Assembly: GCF_034479635.1 (NCBI RefSeq)
Contig: NZ_CP140153.1
Location: 1,185,501-1,249,500 of the forward strand
Length of the DNA: 64,000 nucleotides
Origin: Guyparkeria halophila
GTDB taxonomy: Bacteria; Pseudomonadota; Gammaproteobacteria; Halothiobacillales; Halothiobacillaceae
Reading direction: 5' to 3'
In this document: positions 2,162-21,498 of the stretch, piece by piece
Layout of the letters: every line of letters begins with the position of its first letter
Position numbering within the stretch: position 1 is the stretch's first letter
Notes under the pieces: model-generated
Database searches by the model: none
What the model saw: only the letters and a program-made list of their open reading frames with translations
What the model was told of the DNA's origin: nothing
Made by a program: the position numbers and the translations under genes

Positions 2162-3972
2162 CCGTAGAGACAAAAGCGGGCCCCAATGCCGACAAGGCCG
2201 AGAAGACCGCGCGCCTGCTGGGAGTCGCGAGCATTCGCCGGCGTCAGGTGTCCGAGCCGACCGAGGCCTTGGCACACCTCAACCCACGGCTGGCCCGCGT
2301 GCTCGCCGCGCGTGGTATCACGCAGGCCGCGCAACTCGACCAGCGCCTGGGCGCGGTGCTCCCGCCCACCGGTCTGCCGGATCTCGACGAGGCGGCCCGC
2401 CTGATCAGCGATGCCATCGAGCGACAGGAATCCATCCTGATCGTGGGCGACTTCGATGCCGACGGCGCGACCGCGACCGCGCTGTGCCTGCGTGGTCTGC
2501 GTGCCATGGGCGCTGAACAGGTGGACTTCCTGATCCCGGATCGCCAGCGTCACGGCTACGGCCTGAGCCCCGCGTTGCTCGACGAGCTTGAGACGCCGCC
2601 GGCGCTGATCCTCACGGTCGACAACGGCATCAGCGCCCACGACGGCGTGGCCGCCGCCAAGGCCGCCGGATCGCGCGTGGTCGTCACCGACCATCACCTG
2701 CCGGGCGAGACCCTTCCCGCCGCCGATGCCATCGTCAATCCCAACCGCGCGGATGCGGCCTTCGGTTCAACCGCGCTGGCAGGCGTCGGCGTGGCCTTCT
2801 ATCTGCTCGCCGCTGTGCGCAGCGAGCTCGACCGTCGCGGCTGGTTTGCCGAGCGCGAGCGTCCCAATCTGGCCAACTGGCTGGATCTCGTGGCCCTGGG
2901 CACCATTGCCGACGTGGTTGAATTGGACGACAACAACCGCCGCCTGGTCGCCCAGGGCTTGTCCCGCATTCGTGCCCACGCCTGCGCCCCGGGCATACTC
3001 GCGCTGTTCGCCGTCGCCGGGCGCGACCCGCGCGAGGCCCGTTCCAGCGATCTGGGCTTTGCCATCGGCCCGCGGCTGAACGCCGCCGGGCGGCTGGAGA
3101 ACATGCGGCTGGGGGTCGAATGCCTGCTCGCCGACGAGCCGGCCGAGGCCCGGCAACTGGCCGCCACGCTCGACCAGATCAATCGGCAACGCCGCGACGT
3201 CGAGGCCGACATGCTGGACACCGTCGCCGCCGACCTCGACCGGGCCATGGCCGGGCAGGGCGACACACCGCCCAGCGAGCCGGCCGACTGGGTGCGCTTT
3301 GACCCCGGCTTTCATCCCGGCGTGATCGGTATCGTCGCCGGGCGGCTGAAAAGCCGTTGGATGCGCCCCGTGTTCGTGTTCGCCCCGGCCGAGGTGGGCA
3401 GCGATGACGGTCGTCTCAAAGGCTCGGGACGCTCGATCCCCGGCATCCACCTGCGCGACCTGCTGGTCGAGATCGACGCCCGCCATCCCGGCCTGATCGA
3501 TGGCTTCGGCGGGCACGCCATGGCCGCGGGCCTGTCACTCGACCGCGCCCGGCTCGATGCCTTTCGCCAGGCCTTCACGCACGTGATGAGCCGCCACCAA
3601 GAGCGGCTGCCCGACGGTCGCGAAGTGATCACCGACGGCCCACTGGAGCCCGCCGATCTGCACCTCGACTTCATCGACACCCTCGACCACCACGGCCCAT
3701 GGGGCACCGGCTTTCCCGAACCGCTGTTCGACAACACCTTCGAGGTGCTCGAGCGCACCGCGCTAAAAGACGGCAAACACTGGCGTCTGTCCGTGCGTCT
3801 CCTTGACCACCCGAACGCCCGCCCCGTCGACGCCATCTGGTTCCGCGCCCCCGATCAACTCCCCCCGGGCCGCCACTGGCAGATCGCCTACCGTCCCGTC
3901 GCCGACAGCTTTCGTGGCCGAAAGCGCCTCAAACTATTCGTGGAGACGGCGTTGCCGGTCCCGGCGTCATAG
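2158..3972 (+). CDS. recJ: Single-stranded-DNA-specific exonuclease RecJ
   Basis: RecJ degrades single-stranded DNA 5' to 3' in recombination (RecF pathway), mismatch and base excision repair. The 604-residue product has the DHH phosphoesterase motifs in order: GDFDADG (97-103), DNGISAHDG (155-163), and the DHH triad in VVVTDHH (178-180), followed by a DHHA1 region with a Gly-rich GFGGHAMAAG motif near residue 450. E. coli RecJ is 577 residues, so this is full length. The ATG at 2158 overlaps the preceding stop as ATGA. An upstream in-frame ATG at 2098 lies inside the previous gene and is less likely. Confidence 0.95.
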   Translation: MTVETKAGPNADKAEKTARLLGVASIRRRQVSEPTEALAHLNPRLARVLAARGITQAAQLDQRLGAVLPPTGLPDLDEAARLISDAIERQESILIVGDFDADGATATALCLRGLRAMGAEQVDFLIPDRQRHGYGLSPALLDELETPPALILTVDNGISAHDGVAAAKAAGSRVVVTDHHLPGETLPAADAIVNPNRADAAFGSTALAGVGVAFYLLAAVRSELDRRGWFAERERPNLANWLDLVALGTIADVVELDDNNRRLVAQGLSRIRAHACAPGILALFAVAGRDPREARSSDLGFAIGPRLNAAGRLENMRLGVECLLADEPAEARQLAATLDQINRQRRDVEADMLDTVAADLDRAMAGQGDTPPSEPADWVRFDPGFHPGVIGIVAGRLKSRWMRPVFVFAPAEVGSDDGRLKGSGRSIPGIHLRDLLVEIDARHPGLIDGFGGHAMAAGLSLDRARLDAFRQAFTHVMSRHQERLPDGREVITDGPLEPADLHLDFIDTLDHHGPWGTGFPEPLFDNTFEVLERTALKDGKHWRLSVRLLDHPNARPVDAIWFRAPDQLPPGRHWQIAYRPVADSFRGRKRLKLFVETALPVPAS

Positions 3973-3997
3973 CAGCGACCCGTGGTATTGAGTGAAC

Positions 3998-4028
3998 CCG
4001 TGGGTCGGGCTTCTGCCTGACAATCCGC
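3998..4028. repeat. Degenerate GGGCTTCAGCCC-type palindrome
   Basis: The stretch GTGGGTCGGGCTTCTGCCTG after recJ resembles the better-preserved palindromes at 25408-25430 and 25497-25524 (GTGGGTCGGGCTTCAGCCC type). The stem is imperfect, so this is probably a decayed copy of the same dispersed repeat family. Confidence 0.45.
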
Positions 4029-4093
4029 TCGGCGGGGCGGATGAGGGTTACACTGAAAGCCGTTTCACGAACACCAACCGGACGGTCAAGCGC

Positions 4094-4510
4094 ATGCCGA
4101 TAAAACCGCCGTTAACGCACGCCCCCGTACTCGACCGGCTCGGTTCGATCGCCAAGGACACGCCGGAAATCGCCGTGCTCTGGCTTTACGGGTCGCAGGC
4201 AAAGGGAACCGCGACGCCCAACAGCGACTACGACCTGGCGGTAGCCTTCGCAAAGCCGCTTGCCGATCCATTCGAGCGTCGGCTCCGACCCGAGTTGCTG
4301 GCACAGGCCTGGCAGGATGCACTGGATCTGCCCGCTGAAAAGCTCTCGGTGATCGATATCGATCTGGCACCCATTCCCCTTGCAATGGCCGTGGTGCGCA
4401 CAGGACGTCCCTTGTGCGTCAATGATCCGTTGCGATTGGCGAGGGAAGAAAACCGGATCACGTCGATGTGGGAACTCGACTATCAACACCACCAACAGCA
4501 GTATGGTTGA
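4094..4510 (+). CDS. mntA: MntA-like nucleotidyltransferase antitoxin
   Basis: A 138-residue minimal nucleotidyltransferase. The signature GSQAKGTATPNSDYD (33-47) has the Gly-Ser pair and the two metal-binding aspartates (Asp45, Asp47) of the polymerase-beta fold. In type VII toxin-antitoxin systems MntA neutralises its HEPN partner HepT by transferring AMP groups to a tyrosine beside the toxin's catalytic motif. The partner gene follows after 12 bases, which strongly supports this reading. The open frame extends to 3992, but that upstream part overlaps a decayed repeat and does not resemble the family, so the ATG at 4094 is preferred. No strong ribosome binding site is visible. Confidence 0.82.
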   Translation: MPIKPPLTHAPVLDRLGSIAKDTPEIAVLWLYGSQAKGTATPNSDYDLAVAFAKPLADPFERRLRPELLAQAWQDALDLPAEKLSVIDIDLAPIPLAMAVVRTGRPLCVNDPLRLAREENRITSMWELDYQHHQQQYG

Positions 4511-10200: not shown

Positions 10201-10250
10201 TTGGAGCGGCGAGTTGCACTCGCCGATACGCGGAGTGCAACTCCGCTTGC
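10201..10250. repeat. RAYT-type REP pair, inverted orientation
   Basis: GGCGAGTTGCACTCGCC then GCGGAGTGCAACTCCGC, the same two hairpins as near the RAYT gene but in reverse order. It lies between tviB and wbpB, within the polysaccharide locus, about 4.5 kb from the transposase. Confidence 0.8.
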
Positions 10251-11500: not shown

Positions 11501-11933
11501 TGGCCACGGACGGCCACGGAAAGCACGGACAAGGAAATGTTGGAATGTGAAGATCTCACCTACGCGGTGAGAGGGGCGATATTCGAGGTGTCGCGGGAGT
11601 TGGGCGCCGGATTTCTCGAATCCGTATACGAGAAATCTCTGGCGCACGAGCGGACAGTTCGCGGTCTAGGCGTCGAACGACAGATGCCCGTGACCACGTA
11701 CTACAAGCAGGTGGCCGTAGGTCAGCATGTGCTCGACCTCCTCGTTGAGGACCAACTGGTCATTGAACTGAAGGCAGTGCGGGCCTTGGTACCGGAACAT
11801 GAAGCCCAGTTGCTGCACTACTTGAAGGCAACCGGGTATCGGCTAGGGCTTTTGGTGAATTTCACCCACCCCAAGGCCCAGGTGAAACGCCTTATCCGCT
11901 GACCGTCCGTGCTTTCCGTGACAGTCCGTGGCA
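11501..11933. mobile_element. Putative minimal mobile unit: GxxExxY gene between inverted arms
   Basis: The left arm is 11501-11530 and the right arm 11905-11933. Read inward from each end both contain CCACGGAC, then three bases, then CACGGAAAGCACGGAC, with two mismatches in 27 positions. The enclosed gene starts 7 bases after the left arm and its stop codon is 2 bases before the right arm. The unit is inserted between wbpB and wbpD. Related gene-less copies lie at 11956-12053, 12646-12780 and 20195-20353, and in-frame copies within wbpE and wbpI. No target-site duplication is obvious. That it moves is inferred from its structure and copy number, not shown. Confidence 0.6.
11537..11902 (+). 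CDS. GxxExxY family protein (PD-(D/E)XK nuclease-like)
   Basis: A 121-residue protein with the name-giving motif GFLESVYEKSL (Gly-x-x-Glu-x-x-Tyr) and a downstream core LDLLVEDQLVIELKAV that looks like the D...E-x-K part of a PD-(D/E)XK nuclease fold, then a HEAQLLHYLKATGY segment. The cellular role of the family is not established. The ATG at 11537 is used; the frame is open to 11492, but the upstream part is only the repeat arm. The gene sits exactly between two inverted repeat arms, which suggests it may be the catalytic passenger of a small mobile element rather than a polysaccharide gene. Confidence 0.85.
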   Translation: MLECEDLTYAVRGAIFEVSRELGAGFLESVYEKSLAHERTVRGLGVERQMPVTTYYKQVAVGQHVLDLLVEDQLVIELKAVRALVPEHEAQLLHYLKATGYRLGLLVNFTHPKAQVKRLIR

Positions 11934-11955
11934 ACGCAGCAGTTAGTAAAGAGGG

Positions 11956-12053
11956 TAGCCACGGAAAACACGGAAAGCACAGACGGTTGAAAGACGCGGT
12001 TCTGAGCCCTTCAAGCTTCTTACGTCCGCGTTTTTCCGTGACAGTCCGTGGCA
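11956..12053. repeat. Gene-less 98-bp copy of the CACGGA-arm element
   Basis: The left arm (11956-11986) begins TAGCCACGGAAAACACGGAA. The right arm (12025-12053), in reverse complement, begins TGCCACGGACTGTCACGGAA. About 38 bases without a gene lie between them. The block GTTAGTAAAGAGGG at 11942-11955 just before it is repeated before the copy at 12646, so the repeated unit extends left of the arm. It ends 16 bases before the wbpD start. Confidence 0.7.
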
Positions 12054-12069
12054 AACAAAAAAGAGACTT

Positions 12070-12648
12070 ATGAATTACCAAGTACACGAAACAGCCATCG
12101 TCGACGAAGGCGCCCAGATCGGCGCCGACACCCGCATCTGGCACTGGGTACACGTCTCAGGCGGTGCCCGCATTGGCGAGAAGTGCTCGTTCGGCCAGAA
12201 CGTCTTCGTCGGCAACCGCGTGGTGATCGGCGACAACGTCAAGGTGCAGAACAATGTCTCGGTCTACGACGACGTCACTCTTGAAGACGATGTCTTCTGC
12301 GGCCCGAGCATGGTGTTCACCAACGTCTACAACCCGCGATCGGCTGTACCGCGCAAAGACGAATACCGCCCGACGCTCGTCAAGCAGGGCGCAACCCTGG
12401 GCGCGAACTGCACCATCGTCTGCGGCGTCACCGTCGGCCACCACGCCTTCATCGGCGCCGGCGCCGTCATCAACCGCGACGTACCCGACTATGCCCTCAT
12501 GGTCGGCGTGCCGGCCAAACAGATCGGCTGGATGAGCGAACACGGCGAACGCCTCGACCTGCCCTTAGAAGGCGAGGGCCAGACAACATGCCCGCATACT
12601 GGTGACATTTACCGCTTGAGCCACGGAATGGTTAGTAAAGAGGGATAG
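12070..12648 (+). CDS. wbpD: UDP-2-acetamido-3-amino-glucuronate N-acetyltransferase
   Basis: A 192-residue left-handed beta-helix acetyltransferase with repeated hexapeptides ([57 protein letters not shown]). WbpD uses acetyl-CoA to acetylate the 3-amino group, giving UDP-GlcNAc3NAcA. ATG 12070 follows a gene-less repeat element. The stop TAG (12646-12648) is the first three bases of the next repeat's left arm, and the last five codons (VSKEG) fall in a block that also precedes the copy at 11956, so the protein's end is repeat-derived. The catalytic core lies well upstream and appears intact. Confidence 0.92.
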
Positions 12649-12780
12649 CCACGGAAAACACGGAAAGCACTGACGGTTTTAAAGCCTTCCCGGCTTTCAC
12701 AGTAAAATCCCTACATTCCGCGCTTTCCGTGTCCGTCCGTGGCAACCCAATCCGAGTTTTCCGTGACCACCCGTGGCCAC
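12646..12780. repeat. CACGGA-arm element with two right ends
   Basis: The left arm (12646-12676) is nearly identical to that at 11956, including the preceding GTTAGTAAAGAGGG block (12631-12644). A right arm at 12718-12744 (CGCTTTCCGTGTCCGTCCGT) is followed by a second right arm at 12752-12780 (TTTTCCGTGACCACCCGTGG). The extra right end suggests a nested or tandem insertion. No gene lies inside. Confidence 0.65.
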
Positions 12781-12799
12781 ACAAATTGAAGAGTCAAAC

Positions 12800-13933
12800 A
12801 TGCAGTTCATCGACCTCGCCGCGCAGCAGGCGCGCATCAAGGACAAAATCGACGCGAACATTCAGCGAGTGCTTGCCCACGGCAAGTACATTCTCGGCCC
12901 GGAAGTGGCCGAGTTGGAAGAAAAACTCGCCGACTTCACCGGCGCGAAGTACTGCATTTCCTGCGCCAACGGTACGGACGCCCTGCAGATTGCCCAAATG
13001 GCCGTCGGCGTCGGTCCTGGTGACGAGGTGATCGTCCCGGGCTTCTCCTACATCGCGACCGCGGAAACACCCGCCGTACTGGGTGCGAGACCGGTCTATG
13101 TCGACATCGATCCGGTTACCTACAACATGGATTCGGCAAAGATTGAAGCCGCGATTACGTCGAAGACACGCGCAATCATCCCCGTTTCTCTATATGGCCA
13201 GTGTGCCGACTTCGATGAAATCAATGCGATTGCGGAAAAGCACGGCATCCCGGTGATCGAGGACGGCGCGCAGAGTTTTGGTGCCACCTACAAGGGCAAA
13301 CGATCCTGCAACCTCACCACCATCGGCACCACCAGCTTCTTCCCCAGCAAGCCCCTGGGCGCGTACGGCGACGGCGGCGCGCTGTTTACGAACGACGAAG
13401 AACTGGCCACGAAGCTGCGCCAGATCGCCCGCCACGGCCAGGACCGCCGCTACCACCACCTGCGCGTGGGTGTGAATAGCCGCCTGGACACTCTTCAAGC
13501 CGCCATTCTGCTGCCCAAACTGGAAATCCTTGAAGAGGAGCTTGCCCGCCGAAACGAGGTTGCGGATCGATACAACAGCCTCTTATCTGCCACGGACATC
13601 CACGGACACCCGCTGACACAAACCCCGTCCGAGACCATCCGTGATTTCCGTGGCAAAACCCCTGTCGTCAAGGAGCACAACATCAGCGCCTGGGCGCAGT
13701 ACACCATCCGCGTGAACGATCGCGAGGCAGTTCAGGGAGCGCTCAAGGACGCCGGGATTCCCACCGCCGTGCACTACCCGATCCCCCTGAACAAGCAGCC
13801 GGCGGTAAGTGACGACGCCACATCGTTGCCTGAAGGAGACTTGGCTGCGACGCGCGTAATCAGCCTACCACTTCACCCCTATCTCCCGCATCAAGCCCAA
13901 GATAAGATAGTCGCCAACATCCTTGCAGTATGA
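12800..13933 (+). CDS. wbpE: UDP-2-acetamido-3-keto-glucuronate aminotransferase
   Basis: A 377-residue DegT/DnrJ/EryC1-family PLP aminotransferase. It has the cofactor-site segment CANGTDALQIA, EDGAQSFGA, and the Schiff-base lysine in FFPSKPLGAYGDGGA. WbpE transfers an amino group from glutamate to the 3-keto sugar made by WbpB. Residues about 263-285 (SATDIHGH...DFRGK) are encoded by a 68-bp repeat element at 13588-13655 that keeps the frame; on both sides the protein resumes ordinary family sequence (RYNSLL, then TPVVKEHNISAWAQYTI). The insert lies in a surface-loop-like region before the C-terminal domain, so activity may be retained. ATG 12800 is preferred to 12773, which lies in the preceding repeat arm. 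Confidence 0.92.
   Translation: MQFIDLAAQQARIKDKIDANIQRVLAHGKYILGPEVAELEEKLADFTGAKYCISCANGTDALQIAQMAVGVGPGDEVIVPGFSYIATAETPAVLGARPVYVDIDPVTYNMDSAKIEAAITSKTRAIIPVSLYGQCADFDEINAIAEKHGIPVIEDGAQSFGATYKGKRSCNLTTIGTTSFFPSKPLGAYGDGGALFTNDEELATKLRQIARHGQDRRYHHLRVGVNSRLDTLQAAILLPKLEILEEELARRNEVADRYNSLLSATDIHGHPLTQTPSETIRDFRGKTPVVKEHNISAWAQYTIRVNDREAVQGALKDAGIPTAVHYPIPLNKQPAVSDDATSLPEGDLAATRVISLPLHPYLPHQAQDKIVANILAV
13588..13655. repeat. In-frame CACGGA-arm element inside wbpE
   Basis: The left end TGCCACGGACATCCACGGAC (13588-13607) is mirrored by CCGTGATTTCCGTGGCA (13639-13655), whose complement starts TGCCACGGAAATCACGG. The 68-bp element with inverted ends lies within wbpE and is translated without a stop; its left arm reads Ala-Thr-Asp-Ile-His-Gly. 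Confidence 0.75.
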
Positions 13934-13991
13934 ACAGAATCAAAATCAATTTCTCCAACCCTCACGTGACCGAAATCCGATTTCATAATCC

Positions 13992-15071
13992 GTGAAAATA
14001 TTACTCTTGGCACCCGCAAAAAACCCTTTGATCCGCCGTCTTAAAGCGCGATTGCTAGAGCGGGGCTGCGAGGTGGTTCTCGTCTCTTATGATGATGGGG
14101 CCGATTATCGTTTAAGGGGAAGGGGGCGTTTCTCAGATTATCTCCGTTTTTGGGGTATTCGCGGAATAGTCAAAAAGGAGGCCCCCGATGTTATCCATGC
14201 CCACGGGGTGAACCATTATGGTTTGCTGGCTAGTTTCCAGTGGTCCGTGCCGGTTGTGTTAGCAGCATGGGGTAGCGATGTTTTAGGAGTGGCGCAGAGA
14301 TCAAATCCGGTAGCCAGGTTTGTTCTGCGCGCGATTAATGCCTGGTCGGTGTCGCGCGCATCTAAGATCCATTCATCGGCGCAGCATGTTTTGGATGAAG
14401 CTAGGCGGCAGGCTGTTTTTGCAAAAAAGGAAAAATTTACTTCGTTTTATTGGGGGCTTCCGCCCGTTTGTGGTGACGCAAAAAGTGTGCAAACGGGTGA
14501 ATCTCATGATTGTTTAACCGGTTCTGGTCTGAAACCGGACGACCGTGTCGTACTATTTCCGAGAGGACTCCGTTCGTTATATCGTCCGTTGCTTGTTTTA
14601 GATTTGATAAGAAAATGGAACGAACTCAATCCTGACCGAGTGTGTGTGGTGCTGAAAGCGTTTTCGAAGCCTTATGATGAGAAGGTTTTCTTTGAGAACG
14701 CAAATGGCGCAAATTTTGTTTATATCGATCGCTTATTGGATGATGGCGAGCTGTGCTGTCTGTACAGTAAAACTGATATTCATGTGAACGTTCCGATCAG
14801 CGATGCCTTGGGTGGCGGGGTGATCGAGCCGATTCAGTTTGGCAGTGTTCCGGTGTTAAGCGACTTGAAGCCCTATCGCGACCTGTTGGCGATCACCCAA
14901 GGCTCCTTGCTTGAGTCGGAATCTGATCAAGGTTTGGAGCGCGCGATTAGCACAGCGGAAAGCCTTGCCAAACAGCCAATTAAGTCAAAATATAGCGAAT
15001 ACTCGGCTACGACCGTGGTGAGCAATGTGATAGACCTATATGAAAAGGTTATCGGGCGGCGCACAACGTGA
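13992..15071 (+). CDS. Glycosyltransferase, GT4-like (GT-B fold)
   Basis: A 359-residue putative glycosyltransferase. The N-terminal half has a typical GT-B opening (MKILLLAPAKNP) and DVIHAHGVNHYGLLAS. The C-terminal half contains VVLFPRGLRSLYRP and the nucleotide-sugar site region NVPISDALGGGVIEPIQFGSVPVLSD, matching the E-x7-E region of GT4 enzymes only loosely. The donor and acceptor cannot be deduced. It starts with GTG at 13992 and has no clear ribosome binding site. Base composition is lower in GC than wbpE upstream. It probably adds one sugar of the repeating unit in the cytoplasm. Confidence 0.7.
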   Translation: MKILLLAPAKNPLIRRLKARLLERGCEVVLVSYDDGADYRLRGRGRFSDYLRFWGIRGIVKKEAPDVIHAHGVNHYGLLASFQWSVPVVLAAWGSDVLGVAQRSNPVARFVLRAINAWSVSRASKIHSSAQHVLDEARRQAVFAKKEKFTSFYWGLPPVCGDAKSVQTGESHDCLTGSGLKPDDRVVLFPRGLRSLYRPLLVLDLIRKWNELNPDRVCVVLKAFSKPYDEKVFFENANGANFVYIDRLLDDGELCCLYSKTDIHVNVPISDALGGGVIEPIQFGSVPVLSDLKPYRDLLAITQGSLLESESDQGLERAISTAESLAKQPIKSKYSEYSATTVVSNVIDLYEKVIGRRTT

Positions 15072-15126
15072 AGCTGGGCTGCCCATCAGTCCTTCTGGTT
15101 TTGACCTCCAAGCCTGGCGAGTCGTC

Positions 15127-16470
15127 ATGAATGAACTCAGGAATATCGGACGTACCCTTCGCCAAGGATTTTTAATTCGCGCGGGGCTAGGCAGCATTGT
15201 AATAAAATTTTCTTCGAAGATTATATCGCTCGTTACCGTTGTGGTTTTGGCTAATGTTCTGGGTGCAAGCGATTTCGGCGTGTTTGTGTTCATTATCGCG
15301 CTCATTGGGCTTTTAAGCATGCCTGCTCAGCTTGGCCTTTCAAATCTTGTAATGAAGGTGACTTCTGCCGAACTCGTATCGCGTGATTGGTCTGCAATAA
15401 AAGGTGTTTGGCGTTGGTCGACGCGTCTAAGCTTAGCTTCATCATCTATCATTGTCCTCGTTGCGGTCGCTATATCAGTTGGCTTCGTTGAATCTATCAA
15501 TGATAAACTTTTTTATGGGTTTCTTGTTAGCCTTCCGTTAGTGTTTTTTGTACCCCTTTCAAATATTCGAGGAGGGGCGCTTCGCGGATTGCATCTGGTT
15601 AATTTGGGGCAATTTCCAGAGCAAATAATTCGACCGGGCTTGTTTTTGGTGTTAGTCGCTTTGTCCGTGCTTTTTGGTTATGAGAGTAGTGTTGAAGCGG
15701 CGATTGCGATGAGCGTGACAGCTGCTGCCGTGGCCTTTGTGAGCGGCCAGTTTCTACTGTCCAGATATACGCCTAATGCCGTGAGATCGACTAAGCCAGA
15801 CTATTCTAGTTGGAGATCGTGGCTTTATGCCGCGATCCCGTTGTCGCTTACGGAAGGTGCGTCATTAATCATGGCGAACACAGACTCTGTCATGCTTGGC
15901 ATGTTTTCGACATCCTCGGCAGTTGGGGTGTATAAAATTGCCGTACAGGGGGCGGTCCTCATTGCCTTTGTTATGGATGCCTTGAGCATGGTGGTGGCGC
16001 CGTATTTTTCTAAGCTGCACGCAAGTGATAAAAAGTACGAATTGCAGAAATTGGTTTCATATACTTGTTTGGCTTCGTTTGTGTTTGCGTTGTTTGCATT
16101 TTTATTCTTCGTCATTTTTGGGGAATTATTACTTGAGGTGTTATTCGCTTCCGATTTTTCGTTTGCGTACATTCCGCTTTTGATTCTTTCGGTGTCGCAT
16201 TTGGTGAGCTCATGGGTCGGGCCAGTTGGTGTTTTGCTTAATATGACGGGCAGCCATAGGGTTGTTTTGGTGGCGGTTGCATCCGCGAGCATTTTGAACG
16301 TTGCTCTGAATTTTGTGTTAATTCCGGCTTTTTCTTTGGAAGGCGCCGCGTGGGCAACCGGCATTTCATTGATTTACTGGAAGACTTTTTTGTGGCTGGC
16401 TTCAAAAAGACAACTGGATATCAATAGCAGCCCATCACCCCTATGTTCCAGTCTGTTTTCTTCAAGATGA
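15127..16470 (+). CDS. wzx: Wzx-type O-unit flippase
   Basis: A 447-residue polytopic membrane protein of the MOP/MATE-like polysaccharide exporter superfamily with about 12 hydrophobic helices, starting IVIKFSSKIISLVTVVVLANVLGASDFGVF, which is typical of the first Wzx helix. Wzx flips undecaprenyl-linked units to the periplasmic face. ATG 15127 is chosen because the family similarity begins right after it; the frame extends to 15040, overlapping the previous gene. It shares the AT-rich codon use of its neighbours. Wzx is usually specific for the first sugar, here predicted to be di-N-acetylbacillosamine. Confidence 0.85.
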   Translation: MNELRNIGRTLRQGFLIRAGLGSIVIKFSSKIISLVTVVVLANVLGASDFGVFVFIIALIGLLSMPAQLGLSNLVMKVTSAELVSRDWSAIKGVWRWSTRLSLASSSIIVLVAVAISVGFVESINDKLFYGFLVSLPLVFFVPLSNIRGGALRGLHLVNLGQFPEQIIRPGLFLVLVALSVLFGYESSVEAAIAMSVTAAAVAFVSGQFLLSRYTPNAVRSTKPDYSSWRSWLYAAIPLSLTEGASLIMANTDSVMLGMFSTSSAVGVYKIAVQGAVLIAFVMDALSMVVAPYFSKLHASDKKYELQKLVSYTCLASFVFALFAFLFFVIFGELLLEVLFASDFSFAYIPLLILSVSHLVSSWVGPVGVLLNMTGSHRVVLVAVASASILNVALNFVLIPAFSLEGAAWATGISLIYWKTFLWLASKRQLDINSSPSPLCSSLFSSR

Positions 16471-16501
16471 CTTTTAAACATAAAGCTGCGAGGACAAGGA
16501 T

Positions 16502-17515
16502 GTGATCAAATTCGTTGTTTTTTTGATTTTTATACTGGCGTTGGTTGGTTCTGATTTTTGGCTTCATGACAAGCTGTCGAACTTTCCGAACTATTTTGGC
16601 TGGCGTGAGCTGGCTAAAACCGCTAACGCAGAATACCGAGAGCTTGGCGTGGATGTGAAGGATTTTGAGTCTGGGTATTCGTATAACGGCCCATACATGG
16701 ATTACGGGAATGGTCGGTACTTCAAAGAGTCGAAGGGAAGAATTCGACTGGATAAATCGGGTATTCCGGAGGTTCGTTATGGCGAAGAGTTTCATTATAA
16801 CCCTGTGACAACGGCTCAATTTGCTCTCGCGGAATATAGTCGACCGGGGGGTGTATCAAGCAAGTTCCTTGATATCGTCGATAGTTTAGTGTCAAGACAA
16901 GACGCTAACGGTGCGTTTCGATATAACTTTGTTTTTCGAAAGTATGCGCATGAAGAAGACTACGAACCTGGCTGGACATCTGCTATGGCTCAGGGGCAAG
17001 CACTTAGCGCGCTAGCGAGAGCGTATGCCTTAACAGAGGATGAGAAGTATTTGGAAAGTGGTGAGCTTGCGTTTAATTATCTCACAACCCCCTTCGATGA
17101 GGGTGGCGTGAAAACGGACTTAGGCGAACTGAGGAGTTCGTGGTCTGGTGACGTCTTTTTTATGGAATATCCGGCCGATCCGCCTGTCTACACATTGAAT
17201 GGTTATATGTTCGTAATTATTGGTTTGTATGATTGGAATGAAGCAATTGGTCGATCGGACGCAACGCGCAGGGTGTTAGAGGACTCCCTTTTAAGTTTTC
17301 GGAAAATTCTTGGTTTCTATGATTTGGGAGCATTTAGCTCCTACGATCTATCTTTCATGACCTTGCCTTTTAAAAAATCGGGAGAAAAACGTTCGCCGCA
17401 CTATTCTCCTTATTACCACGCCGTTCATATCGAACAGCTGAATTTGCTTTATGACATTTTTGGCGAACAGTACATGAGGGAAACTGCTGAAAGGTGGGCC
17501 GAGTATGTTCGGTGA
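16502..17515 (+). CDS. D-glucuronyl C5-epimerase-like protein, membrane-anchored
   Basis: A 337-residue protein with an N-terminal signal-anchor helix (about residues 3-20), followed by a domain that resembles the C-terminal catalytic domain of glucuronyl C5-epimerases: HYNPVTTAQFALAEY, WTSAMAQGQALSALARAY, FMEYPADPPVYTLNGYMF and YYHAVHIEQLNLLYDIF. In heparan sulfate synthesis such enzymes convert D-glucuronate to L-iduronate within the polymer. Here the locus makes a diacetamido-mannuronate, so C5 inversion would yield an L-gulo configured residue; this is inference. The anchor suggests it acts in the periplasm. Start GTG 16502 follows AGGACAAGGA. An unusual gene for an O-antigen locus, and part of the AT-rich segment. 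Confidence 0.75.
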   Translation: MIKFVVFLIFILALVGSDFWLHDKLSNFPNYFGWRELAKTANAEYRELGVDVKDFESGYSYNGPYMDYGNGRYFKESKGRIRLDKSGIPEVRYGEEFHYNPVTTAQFALAEYSRPGGVSSKFLDIVDSLVSRQDANGAFRYNFVFRKYAHEEDYEPGWTSAMAQGQALSALARAYALTEDEKYLESGELAFNYLTTPFDEGGVKTDLGELRSSWSGDVFFMEYPADPPVYTLNGYMFVIIGLYDWNEAIGRSDATRRVLEDSLLSFRKILGFYDLGAFSSYDLSFMTLPFKKSGEKRSPHYSPYYHAVHIEQLNLLYDIFGEQYMRETAERWAEYVR

Positions 17516-17537
17516 TATTTTCTATTAGATTCATGAT

Positions 17538-19004
17538 GTGAGAAGAATGCAACTGCGCGGATTCAATTTGTTGTCTTTCCGGTCATTTGGTATGCGCAAC
17601 CCAGTTGTGTTTATTGGCCTTCAATTATTTCTCCTTGTGGCGCTGGCGAGTTTTGTGCCCTACTTGTCCGAGCACGCTTGGTTTGGTTTTGCCATAATTC
17701 TTGTCCTCTTGGGCTTTGGTTTTATATTTTCTCAACGTCTAGATTGGGTATTTTCACCCCTGACGTTTTTTTCGGTGTCATATCTTGGCTACGCGGTTGG
17801 AGCGATTTATTACTCGATTGCCGGTGGTGTCGGCAAGTTTTCAATTTTAACTGGGACCGAGGTTGAGTTTTGGTCGTATGCTCCATCGGTGAGCTTGTTG
17901 CTCGTATTATGTTTTATAGGGTTTGGTGCTGGATACCTTTTCGGTGAGTTTCGGATTCATGGTTGTCGTGCAAAACCGCCTAGTCGGGAGGCCGCGGCTG
18001 GGCAAAAGGGTAAGTGGCTTTTGTCAGTATATAAACCAATTGTGTTTATTAGCCTTTTCATTGGATTGGTTTGGTGGGTGTATATTGCATATACGGTATC
18101 CGACGGATTATGGCAATTTATAAAAGAATTTCAGGTGTTTCCACATAGGGTTGCTGAGTATGGCATTTCGACTCTTCCGTACCACTTCTATTACGCTGGT
18201 ATTTTTTTATGGCTGTATGTGTTTCTACTTAAGGATGAAAGCCCGGGTGTTTTGTTTTGGTTGTTGTCCCTGGTCGGAGTGTTGATCAACTTAACGCAAG
18301 GGCGAGTTATGCTGTCGGCCACCTTTCTTATGTCATTATTGGTCGCGTTAGGGGTTTTTCGTCCAGTGCTAAGAGCACGGATTGTATATTTGTTATTAGG
18401 CGTGGTTGTATTAGCCATAGTGGCCTATGTTTTGAGGATTTATAGTAATTACTCTTTTATTGGGAAAGAGTTTGACTTGTTTGATGGTGGTCTTGTCTCG
18501 TCCGTTTTGGGATCCTTGGTTGCCGGTGGGAATGTTCCGGACCTGCAGCAACTGGTCATTATAACGCATGGCTGGCCTCATGGGTCAGGGGTTTATGGAT
18601 TAACGTACCTTGATGGCTTTAGAAATATGTTTTCTGGTTTGTTTGGGTTTGAACCTTCGTCGGTTGGGCTGCAAATAAAAGAACTATACTTCCCTGATCG
18701 GTCGGGCCCCCCTACGCCGGGAGCTGTTGGAGAAACGTATTACAATTTTGGTATGTTTTCGCCACTGTTCTTTGTCTTTGTTGGGTTTGTTTTGGCAAAA
18801 ATTTATAGGCATGTCTTGGCCTCTGGTTCGGCTCTCTTGTATATTATTTACGCTATATTTTTGACCAGATTTGTCTTTATGTATCCAAAAGTGGACTCGA
18901 CTATGATCGTTAATTTTCTTTGGGGAGTCGGCCCTTTTTTATTTATTTTGTTGGTTTCTTATTTGTGTTGGGGTTTTTTGAGGTTTGGTCGAGAATTTCG
19001 CTAG
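17538..19004 (+). CDS. wzy: Wzy-type O-antigen polymerase
   Basis: A 488-residue membrane protein with about 10-12 hydrophobic segments and a large polar loop in the C-terminal half (about residues 345-400, with GWPHGSGVYGLTYLDGFRNM and PPTPGAVGETYYNFGM). The TPGAVGE-x-Y-x-NFG pattern is typical of oligosaccharide repeat unit polymerases. Wzy joins flipped units in the periplasm. The start is uncertain: GTG 17538, ATG 17547 and ATG 17592 are all in frame, and no strong ribosome binding site is seen. It follows the epimerase gene by 22 bases and shares its low GC. Confidence 0.8.
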   Translation: MRRMQLRGFNLLSFRSFGMRNPVVFIGLQLFLLVALASFVPYLSEHAWFGFAIILVLLGFGFIFSQRLDWVFSPLTFFSVSYLGYAVGAIYYSIAGGVGKFSILTGTEVEFWSYAPSVSLLLVLCFIGFGAGYLFGEFRIHGCRAKPPSREAAAGQKGKWLLSVYKPIVFISLFIGLVWWVYIAYTVSDGLWQFIKEFQVFPHRVAEYGISTLPYHFYYAGIFLWLYVFLLKDESPGVLFWLLSLVGVLINLTQGRVMLSATFLMSLLVALGVFRPVLRARIVYLLLGVVVLAIVAYVLRIYSNYSFIGKEFDLFDGGLVSSVLGSLVAGGNVPDLQQLVIITHGWPHGSGVYGLTYLDGFRNMFSGLFGFEPSSVGLQIKELYFPDRSGPPTPGAVGETYYNFGMFSPLFFVFVGFVLAKIYRHVLASGSALLYIIYAIFLTRFVFMYPKVDSTMIVNFLWGVGPFLFILLVSYLCWGFLRFGREFR

Positions 19005-19072
19005 AAGTAATATTTCTTTTCTTAAAAAGGATGGGCGGTGGGTTTTATGTTTTTTTGCGTGGTCTTGGTTAA

Positions 19073-20191
19073 ATGATTATTCATTTCAGCACAGTTCATG
19101 CCCGAACCGACACTCGCATCCGCGTCAAACAGGTCGCCTCGTTGGCTGGGGCCTTTGATGAGCGGGTAGCGCTCTACGTACAGGACGGAAAAGGTAACGA
19201 GCGGGACGAGGCCCATGGTATCGAGGTGATGGATACGGGGTTGCCGTCTGGTGGCCGCTTGGCCCGGATGACCAAGGGTGCTTGGCGGATGTACCGTGCG
19301 GTGCGCCGGGCACGGCCGTCCGTGGCGCATTTTCATGACCCGGAATTGATCCCGGTGGGGCTGGCGCTGAAATTCTCCGGTATCAAGGTGGTCTACGACG
19401 TTCACGAAGATGTGCCGCGTCAGATCCTGGGAAAGCACTGGATCAGCCCCTGGCTGCGCCGCCCGGTGGCTGGATTGGTTGAGGGTGTCGAGTGGGTCGC
19501 GGCACGGGTGTTCGATGGTGTGGTGACGGCCACGCCGACCATATCGGCTCGGTTCCCCTCCAAGAAGACGGTCACCGTGCAGAATTTCCCGATCCTGGGC
19601 GAATTGGTGCTTCCGGAGTCGACACCGTTTTCTGAGCGCCCGCTTCATGTGGTTTATGTTGGTGGCATCACGGCGGCTCGGGGTGCCGTGGAGATGGTTG
19701 ACGCTCTCGAACGCGTGACGAACGATCAGGTCCGCCTGCAACTGGGCGGGACGTTCACGCCCGTTGGCCGGGAGAATGAGGTCAGTGCCTTGCCGGGCTG
19801 GTCGCGTGTGGTGGCGCATGGCTGGGTGGATCGCATTACCGTGGCGGAATTACTTGGGAATGTGCGGGCTGGGTTGGTGCTGTTTCACCCGGCCCCTAAT
19901 CACATGGATGCCCAACCCAACAAGATGTTTGAATATATGGCCGCGGCCTTGCCGGTGATTGCCTCGGACTTTCCACTGTGGCGCAAGATCATCGACGGGG
20001 CGCGTTGCGGGCTGCTGGTCGATCCGCTCGATCCGCAAGCCATCGCCGAGGCCATCGATTGGATCCTTATGCATCCCGAAGAAGCCGAAGCGATGGGGCG
20101 GCGCGGCCGCAAGGCGGTCGAGTCAACTTATAACTGGGAGCGCGAGTCGGAGACGCTCATCAACTTCTATAAACAACTTCTCGCGAAGTGA
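19073..20191 (+). CDS. Glycosyltransferase family 4 protein
   Basis: A 372-residue GT-B glycosyltransferase. The N-terminal domain has HFHDPELIPVGLALK and VVYDVHEDVPRQIL. The C-terminal donor-binding domain has VVYVGGITAARG and the GT4 nucleotide-binding region PNKMFEYMAAALPVIASDF (the acid residues of E-x7-E lie here). The HDPEL plus DVHED combination is common among O-antigen GT4 enzymes of the WbpH/CapM type, but donor and acceptor are unknown. Base composition returns to GC-rich at this gene. It is followed after 3 bases by a gene-less repeat element separating it from wbpI. Confidence 0.82.
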   Translation: MIIHFSTVHARTDTRIRVKQVASLAGAFDERVALYVQDGKGNERDEAHGIEVMDTGLPSGGRLARMTKGAWRMYRAVRRARPSVAHFHDPELIPVGLALKFSGIKVVYDVHEDVPRQILGKHWISPWLRRPVAGLVEGVEWVAARVFDGVVTATPTISARFPSKKTVTVQNFPILGELVLPESTPFSERPLHVVYVGGITAARGAVEMVDALERVTNDQVRLQLGGTFTPVGRENEVSALPGWSRVVAHGWVDRITVAELLGNVRAGLVLFHPAPNHMDAQPNKMFEYMAAALPVIASDFPLWRKIIDGARCGLLVDPLDPQAIAEAIDWILMHPEEAEAMGRRGRKAVESTYNWERESETLINFYKQLLAK

Positions 20192-20194
20192 TAT

Positions 20195-20353
20195 TTGCCA
20201 CGGACAGACATGGAAAGCACTGAAAAGGGACTCTCGCTAAGGCGCCAAGCCGCAAAGATTGAAACAGGGCAATGGAGCTCTGCATCCTTTGTGCCCTGGC
20301 GACTTTGCGCGGGCCATCAATATTCCGTGCTTTCCGTGCCCGTCCGTGGCCAA
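20195..20353. repeat. 159-bp gene-less CACGGA-arm element
   Basis: The left arm (20195-20227, TTGCCACGGACAGACATGGA...) and the inverted right arm (20322-20353, TTCCGTGCTTTCCGTGCCCG...) enclose about 95 bases without a gene. It sits between a glycosyltransferase stop and the wbpI start (17 bases from the right arm). Confidence 0.7.
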
Positions 20354-20370
20354 TTGGATTAACCAAACCT

Positions 20371-21498
20371 ATGCAACGAATTCTTACGATCATCGGTGCC
20401 CGCCCGCAGTTCATCAAGGCGAGCGTGGTTTCTCGCGCCATTCAAGCCACCGAGGGCATCGAGGAGATTCTCCTGCATACAGGGCAGCACTTTGATGCCA
20501 ACATGTCGGAGGTGTTCTTCGACCAGCTCGGCATCCCGCGTCCAGATGTGCAACTGGATATCCACGGTGGTTCGCACGGGGCGATGACCGGTCGGATGCT
20601 CTCTGAAATCGAACAGATAATCCTGCGTGAGAAGCCTGACCGGGTCATGGTTTACGGCGATACCAACTCCACCCTGGCCGGTGCGTTGGCCGCCGCGAAA
20701 CTGCACGTGCGGGTGGCCCATGTCGAGGCCGGCCTGCGCAGTTTCAACATGGCCATGCCCGAAGAGTTAAATCGCATCCTCACCGACCAGATCAGTGACC
20801 TGTTGTTTTGCCCCACGGACACTGCATTGCGCAACCTGGAAGCCGAAGGCTTTGACAACAAGCCGGTGCAGGTGTTGCAGGTAGGTGACGTTATGCAGGA
20901 TGCCGCGTTGTTCTTCGCGCGGCATGCCGTCGCGCCGGAAGGCTTGCCTGCCGAGATATTTGCCACGGACGGTCACGGACAGTCACGGAAAAACGGGGCT
21001 GGGGGCGCGGGTTTTATCCTTGCGACGCTTCACCGAGCGGAGAACACGGATGATCCCCTGCGCCTAGCCGGCATCGTCGAGGCGCTTAATCAGATTCACC
21101 GCGAGATTGCCCCCGTCATTCTGCCGCTGCACCCGCGCACTCGGGCGGCGATAGACCGGGAAGGGCTGACGCTCGAACCCCATGTCATCGATCCGGTGGG
21201 TTACTTCGAGATGCTCTGGCTGCTCGATCACTGCGGTCTTGTCTTGACCGACAGCGGCGGCGTGCAGAAGGAAGCCTTCTTCTTCGGCAAGGCCTGCGTC
21301 ACCATGCGCGACCAGACCGAGTGGGTGGAACTGGTCGAGGCGGGCGCCAACGAACTGGTCGGTGCCGATGCTGAGCGCATCCTGTCCGCCGGCCGCCGTC
21401 ACCTTGGGCGGACGATCGAGGACCGCCATGAGTTGTATGGCGGCGGCAAGGCGGCGGAACGGATTGTCGGCAAAATACTGGAAGAGGGCAGGGCATGA
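20371..21498 (+). CDS. wbpI: UDP-2,3-diacetamido-2,3-dideoxyglucuronate 2-epimerase
   Basis: A 375-residue non-hydrolysing UDP-sugar 2-epimerase. It has GARPQFIKAS (7-16), GDTNSTLAGALAAAKL, HVEAGLRSFN, PEELNRILTD, LATLHRAEN and LTDSGGVQKEAFFF. In P. aeruginosa WbpI converts UDP-GlcNAc3NAcA to UDP-ManNAc3NAcA; with the other wbp genes here that substrate is the best guess. Residues about 197-209 (ATDGHGQSRKNG) are encoded by a single repeat arm at 20961-20996 inserted in frame just before the GFILATLHRAEN core. ATG 20371 is the family start; an extension to 20272 runs through the preceding repeat element. Confidence 0.9.
   Translation: MQRILTIIGARPQFIKASVVSRAIQATEGIEEILLHTGQHFDANMSEVFFDQLGIPRPDVQLDIHGGSHGAMTGRMLSEIEQIILREKPDRVMVYGDTNSTLAGALAAAKLHVRVAHVEAGLRSFNMAMPEELNRILTDQISDLLFCPTDTALRNLEAEGFDNKPVQVLQVGDVMQDAALFFARHAVAPEGLPAEIFATDGHGQSRKNGAGGAGFILATLHRAENTDDPLRLAGIVEALNQIHREIAPVILPLHPRTRAAIDREGLTLEPHVIDPVGYFEMLWLLDHCGLVLTDSGGVQKEAFFFGKACVTMRDQTEWVELVEAGANELVGADAERILSAGRRHLGRTIEDRHELYGGGKAAERIVGKILEEGRA
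20961..20996. repeat. In-frame CACGGA arm inside wbpI
   Basis: TGCCACGGACGGTCACGGAC followed by AGTCACGGAAAAACGG is one arm of the dispersed element, read as Ala-Thr-Asp-Gly-His-Gly. This is the same reading frame as the copy in wbpE. No opposite arm is visible, so this is a partial copy. Confidence 0.7.

Follow-up and report, generated by a model that had tools for sequence, protein, structure and literature searches.

Inverted tandem-unit arms flank GxxExxY genes of the predicted PD-(D/E)XK nuclease fold in bacteria and archaea and recur in gene-less elements

Among the systems described to date, RAYT, or TnpA(REP), with its REP, BIME and REPIN elements comes closest to the locus reported herein, and the evidence defining it comprises inverted flanking repeats, co-variation, and a correlation with repeat number (Nunvar et al. 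2010, PMC2817692). The GxxExxY gene of Guyparkeria halophila, situated in the 64,000-nt stretch analysed in this study (hereafter, the window), shares these features, in that one small nuclease gene is flanked by two inverted repeats, cognate repeats are dispersed without the gene and their abundance correlates with it (exceptions being the genomes G156, G037 and G223), and the repeats co-vary with the protein. In contrast to RAYT, which is a HUH tyrosine (Y1) transposase of the IS200/IS605 kind, the protein is a predicted PD-(D/E)XK nuclease and not of the HUH type. Furthermore, whereas REPs are short imperfect palindromes, an arm here comprises about three 8-11-bp units in tandem, and it takes two distant arms to make the palindrome. 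Since its enzyme belongs to an unrelated superfamily, the GxxExxY system would work like RAYT/REP without being a member of it.

Two further kinds of repeat offer partial parallels, as far as they are portrayed in the relevant portions of PMC10969869. The gene-less relatives of the arms resemble MITEs in being 63-200-bp, hairpin-forming elements with terminal inverted repeats, located between genes and sometimes in frame; however, no target-site duplication was detected for them, and the candidate parent is the GxxExxY unit instead of a DDE transposase. They also recall the Rickettsia palindromic elements (RPE), which are inserted in frame in housekeeping proteins, as seen here in WbpE and WecB, but those portions of the source mention no nuclease partner for RPE, whereas a cognate gene lies 1.7 kb away here. 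A DDE insertion sequence differs in its enzyme, as no DDE/RNase H-fold transposase is present and only PD-(D/E)XK family and fold matches were obtained.

The gene-bearing unit is composed of the following features (window coordinates).

11503-11530, plus strand: left arm, GCCACGGACGGCCACGGAAAGCACGGAC, in which CACGGA occurs three times, spaced 10 and 9 bp apart; also found in G300 and G321
11537-11902, plus strand: GxxExxY (TIGR04256/PDDEXK_3) gene, 121 aa, ATG to TGA; predicted PD-(D/E)XK nuclease
11905-11932, minus strand: right arm, an inverted copy of the left arm (26/28 in the arm alignment)

The arms, 28 nt each and 93% complementary (26/28), stand 6 bases from the gene on the left side and 2 bases on the right, and the values of 25/27 and 7/2 given by the sequence-only reading differ merely in where the arms are cut. 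The flanking genes encode a Gfo/Idh/MocA oxidoreductase (WbpB-like) and a hexapeptide acyltransferase (WbpD-like) by profile, in good agreement with the earlier placement of the unit between wbpB and wbpD. The GxxExxY gene is single-copy in the 2.45-Mb genome. What had been missed is that the window arms are built of 2-3 tandem copies of a 9-10-bp unit. The shuffle control predicted 2.9 occurrences of CACGGAAAGCACGGA (≤3 mismatches) and 0 of TTTCCGTGACAGTCCGTGGC in the window, where 15 and 9, respectively, were counted. Genome-wide, a single arm-core match with ≤1 mismatch fell outside window positions 11515-20338, a stretch of the polysaccharide cluster. A separate palindromic repeat unrelated to the arms, GCGGCGAGTTGCACTCGCCGATACGCGGAGTGCAACTCCG, is located at window positions 10203-10246, and several matches to it lie upstream in the G300 cluster region (L163, ~3190-4399).

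The window protein scored higher than the curated profile cut-offs require, both for TIGR04256 (E 1.1e-39, 135.4 bits against a cut-off of 35) and for PF13366 (E 3.5e-38, 131 bits against a cut-off of 22), and PDDEXK_3/GxxExxY was its only Pfam/NCBIfam match. An AlphaFold2 model (pLDDT 94, pTM 0.86) was compared with known folds by Foldseek and VIA-align, and the nearest ones included Cas4 SSO0001, lambda exonuclease, AddAB, MGME1 and Hjc, the best match being Cas4 SSO0001 (Z 10.3, 2.1 Å over 90 residues). The motif residues D67, E77-x-K79 and Q91xxxY95 are, together with G25, E28 and Y31, invariant in 47 sequences. The predicted fold and the D...ExK...QxxxY motif agree with the earlier description of GxxExxY proteins as PD-(D/E)XK-nuclease-like, and the window protein is predicted to be a minimal nuclease of this superfamily nearest to Cas4/lambda exonuclease. 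While it shares with Cas4, lambda exonuclease and AddB-type proteins this predicted fold, the RecB-type nuclease core and the motif, it differs from Cas4 in its length of 121 aa, in having a single Cys and no four-cysteine iron-sulfur cluster, and in having no adjoining helicase or CRISPR partner. PADLOC Cas4 profiles gave marginal matches only (E about 1e-3), and a search by sequence found no relatives among solved structures. A literature search found the family rarely named and never for its function, no relevant paper on the arm repeat strings, and no prior description of a GxxExxY-arm system.

In addition to the gene-bearing unit, the window holds gene-less relatives of the arms.

11938-12052, unstranded: gene-less element E2, with arms at 11958-12052; present in G321, absent from G300
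12648-12743, unstranded: gene-less element E3, between wbpD and wbpE; forms a hairpin (z -6.75)
12758-12777, unstranded: solitary arm fragment adjoining E3
13589-13653, unstranded: gene-less element E4, in frame within wbpE; also in G321
20198-20350, unstranded: gene-less element E5, with a second arm family inside
20963-20993, plus strand: one-sided arm remnant E6, in frame within the WecB-like epimerase gene

The four elements and the one-sided remnant bear out the sequence-only reading that such relatives occur nearby. E4 coincides with 18 extra residues relative to the Pseudomonas aeruginosa WbpE (3NU7), and the second arm family nested in E5, CGCTAAGGCGCCAAG... (~20235-20310), reads CGCTAAGGCGCCAAGCCGCAAAG ... 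CCTTTGTGCCCTGGCGACTTTGCG. In G300, the wbpD-wbpE gap contains a related family, CGCTAAGGCGCAAAGTCACAAAGG, in place of the CACGGA element. Gene-less elements fold as hairpins better than their shuffles, elements of 63-200 bp are common across the genomes examined, and their interiors, when read, contained no evident gene remnants. It is this gene-less hairpin that varies and multiplies, sometimes in frame inside proteins.

The fine structure of these elements bears on one alternative, according to which the arms are the binding sites of a repair enzyme, either a host or a selfish one; this protein would process or tolerate the structures without spreading them, and ordinary processes between repeats, namely recombination, slippage and template switching, would let the arms multiply or persist. 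The arms of E2 are preceded by ~20 bp with similarity to the 3' end of wbpD, which lies downstream, and E2 has in common with E3 the left arm and this stretch of wbpD, so that it looks as if E2 were an E3 copy taken together with its ~20-bp flank. The 120-bp E2 unit is carried by the window and G321 and missing from G300, for which a deletion between 22-bp direct repeats offers an equally simple account. Such a copy, the nested elements, and the single 10-bp unit by which the left arms of G300 and the window differ are all favourable to the repair enzyme, as is the persistence of arms in genomes without the gene described below.

The association between arms and gene was assessed in 299 genomes of the phylum to which the window belongs by scoring three-unit AG-type arms. 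They were present in 51 of the 57 genomes with a GxxExxY gene and in 28 of the 242 without one (odds ratio 65, p 3e-30), with odds ratios of 27 inside the dominant family and 28 outside it; the arm pattern itself gave 1686 matches as compared with 32 for a reversed control pattern. At closer range, CACGGA-type arms were found in exactly three of the 40 closest relatives (G000, G300 and G321), which carry the GxxExxY subtype of the window, and in none of the 37 others. Five of these 37 carry other GxxExxY genes, and the two whose flanks were read, one with its downstream flank masked, have other arm classes. There were, however, genomes with many arms and no GxxExxY gene over the cut-off, namely G156 (133 matches), G037 (21) and G223 (28), and no divergent PDDEXK_3 gene rose above the cut-off in 15 arm-rich gene-less genomes. 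The arms therefore persist, and may spread, without the gene; in G156, G037 and G223 the gene may have been lost or may be supplied in trans, or the arms may have spread independently. In G068, a genome without a GxxExxY gene, arm units were also seen within a coding-looking tandem repeat of ~165 bp (L277, C34:4008-4360).

To see how far the arrangement extends, a profile search was carried out, which yielded 80 GxxExxY loci from many phyla, and 78 of them were scored for flanking arms by aligning each 160-bp upstream flank with the reverse-complemented downstream flank of equal length (cut-off ≥20). Inverted arms were detected at 51 of the 78 GxxExxY genes as against 2 of 522 other ORFs on the same contigs; when upstream and downstream flanks were paired across loci, 1.8% of the mismatched pairs reached the arm score. 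With a wider search span and a cut-off of 18, the number rose to 59 of 78, and these 59 loci represent 21 labelled groups, among which are at least 17-18 named phyla including Methanobacteriota (Archaea), the groups outside named phyla being unclassified bacteria or MAGs. About one quarter to one third of GxxExxY genes are without recognisable arms. The arms have a common grammar and no common sequence: an AT-rich TTNA end is followed by (A/G)CC(A/G)C in most and then by about three 8-11-bp units, such as CACAGAG, CACGAAG, CGCCAAG, CGCAGATGAA, ACAGGATTA and CACGGAAAG. In two IMG/VR contigs (L133 and L134), distant GxxExxY relatives have long inverted flanks of a different tandem unit, ACTTAAAATTT, which suggests that the gene-between-arms arrangement extends to viral or host-derived contigs.

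An artefact, whether of chance or of local composition in one polysaccharide cluster, would be in keeping with the confinement of the arms to ~9-9.5 kb of the window genome. The shuffle controls and the cross-phylum comparisons exclude this explanation, which we regard as scarcely credible.

The arms were further found to follow the protein. On a protein tree of 152 proteins and 121 columns, many forks of which are weak, arm class changed 8 times as compared with 41 times with shuffled labels, and none of 200 shuffles gave a value as low. In the diverse set, the similarity of arms correlated with the identity of the proteins (Mantel rho 0.35, p 0.0005). Where a genome has two or three GxxExxY genes (~40% identity), the arms often differ from gene to gene, matching the subtypes, so that the effect cannot be put down to genomic background. 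At most variable positions, the left and right arms of a locus agree in ~70-90% of cases, as compared with ~35-50% between loci, and this agreement implies concerted change or constraint. Although co-inheritance alone could produce the arm-class signal, its survival at 40-50% protein identity speaks for a constraint on the sequence of the arms. The repair enzyme considered above leaves unexplained both why arm type follows protein subtype and why, in at least 17-18 named phyla, this gene and not other ORFs should lie between the arms, and we thus consider it unlikely.

A different account would have the arms be an independent repeat family moved by other machinery, with the GxxExxY gene as passenger or beneficiary. 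The arm-rich genomes without the gene fit this account, as does the history of the unit in the window lineage, where the polysaccharide cluster has probably carried it from one genus to another. Against it, the arm pairs located in 755 kb enclosed no gene of another kind. Of three longer gene-size arm pairs that were opened, the two with an intact ORF each proved to enclose another GxxExxY gene; nested repeats lay within a 522-bp pair in L078, and pairs of 390 bp (G229) and 395 bp (G116) contained nested or decayed material. Together with the distribution of arm classes on the protein tree, these observations leave the passenger account very improbable. Genes for four-helix-bundle proteins might likewise travel within repeats of this sort.

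Orthologous sites with and without the unit were identified in the genus g70. Between trpD and trpC, the unit is present in 13 genomes (one broken and one frameshifted) and absent from 6, and the four tightest empty sites show a 4-nt ATGA stop/start overlap. Comparison of the two states fixed the ends of the unit to within a few bases, as the empty site of G184 reads TGA followed by AAAGCTTTTGAC, and the filled site of G160 reads TGA followed by ACCGC...GCGGT and then AAAAAGCTTTTGACC. Between ribF and ileS, a gene-bearing GAT-type unit was found in G025 and G017, gene-less AG-type elements in G124 and G132, and nothing in G021 and G009. At this site in G025 (L031/L279), the last codons and stop of ribF are supplied by the left arm, indicating that the element replaced the natural 3' end of ribF. 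No empty site was found between wbpB and wbpD, as all three clusters available from the window lineage are filled; G331 has a distant WbpB homologue with no wbpD after it. Empty sites could reflect loss instead of gain. Because the arms correlate with GxxExxY genes and orthologous sites without the unit exist, neither of the outcomes named beforehand as fatal to the proposal, namely uncorrelated arms or an arrangement never absent from orthologous sites, was obtained.

The terminal inverted arms directly outside one small gene, the gene-less relatives and the empty orthologous sites are also what would be expected of an autonomous cut-and-paste transposon, in which the nuclease excises the unit at its terminal inverted repeats and the gene-less elements are internal-deletion derivatives, as the sequence-only reading had proposed. 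Several lines of evidence speak against it. Target-site duplications of 2-8 bp showed no excess over shuffled pairs in 72 elements, among which old insertions could have lost theirs, and the ATGA that borders the unit on either side at trpD-trpC could be due to selection for the stop and the start. In an all-against-all DNA comparison of 158 genes, no near-identical copies were found at unrelated sites, such as recent movement would leave; near-identical pairs share at least one flank, and of the pairs above the 78% cut-off only L204/L206, at 78%, had no similarity in the flanks. Relatives were detected on only 8 of 72,556 plasmids and 0 of 50,697 phages, and a plasmid DNA search gave no match. 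Moreover, those interiors of gene-less elements that were read are not evident gene remnants. The genes showed no orientation bias relative to their neighbours, both of which were codirectional in 37 of 67 cases as compared with 194 of 381 control ORFs. Several copies of the CACAGAG elements of G124 lie inside a larger repeated sequence and are thus not independent insertions. On present evidence the unit is not a classical transposon, an interpretation to which we give little probability, and its pattern more nearly resembles that of RAYT/REP systems.

Taken together, we consider it probable that the locus represents a repeat-associated nuclease system of a RAYT/REP-like kind, in which the gene and its two arms form one inherited unit, the enzyme acts on the arms, and mainly small copies without the gene spread. 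Arm-rich genomes without the gene, GxxExxY genes without recognisable arms, and the failure to find near-identical copies of the gene elsewhere count against this interpretation. In the mechanism we propose, the GxxExxY protein would recognise its own arms by their tandem 8-11-bp units, probably in the paired state of a hairpin or cruciform, and the nuclease would cut at or near the arm ends. Repair or replication following the cut may then copy or re-insert arm-bounded DNA at other gaps with no target-site duplication. The gene-bearing copy would move rarely and be inherited mostly in place, and small gene-less hairpin elements would accumulate, for the most part in intergenic positions and now and then in frame within a gene.

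As a result of these comparisons, GxxExxY, a very common family without an assigned function, gains a testable partner in its own arms, and widespread unexplained dispersed repeats gain a candidate maker. If the protein acts on the arms, RAYT/REP would have a counterpart of independent evolutionary origin, a second repeat-and-nuclease system in which the enzyme is Cas4-like. We advance, tentatively, the broader possibility that GxxExxY proteins found an unrecognised class of genome-colonising element in bacteria and archaea, wherein a stand-alone Cas4-like nuclease would recognise inverted arms of tandem units and spread the hairpins they bound, leaving no target-site duplication, in convergence with RAYT/REP and by different chemistry. 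Were this true, it would explain a large share of the CACAGAG-, CGCAGAT- and CACGAAG-type dispersed repeats in environmental genomes, and arm-specific cutting and dispersal would make the GxxExxY system a new class.
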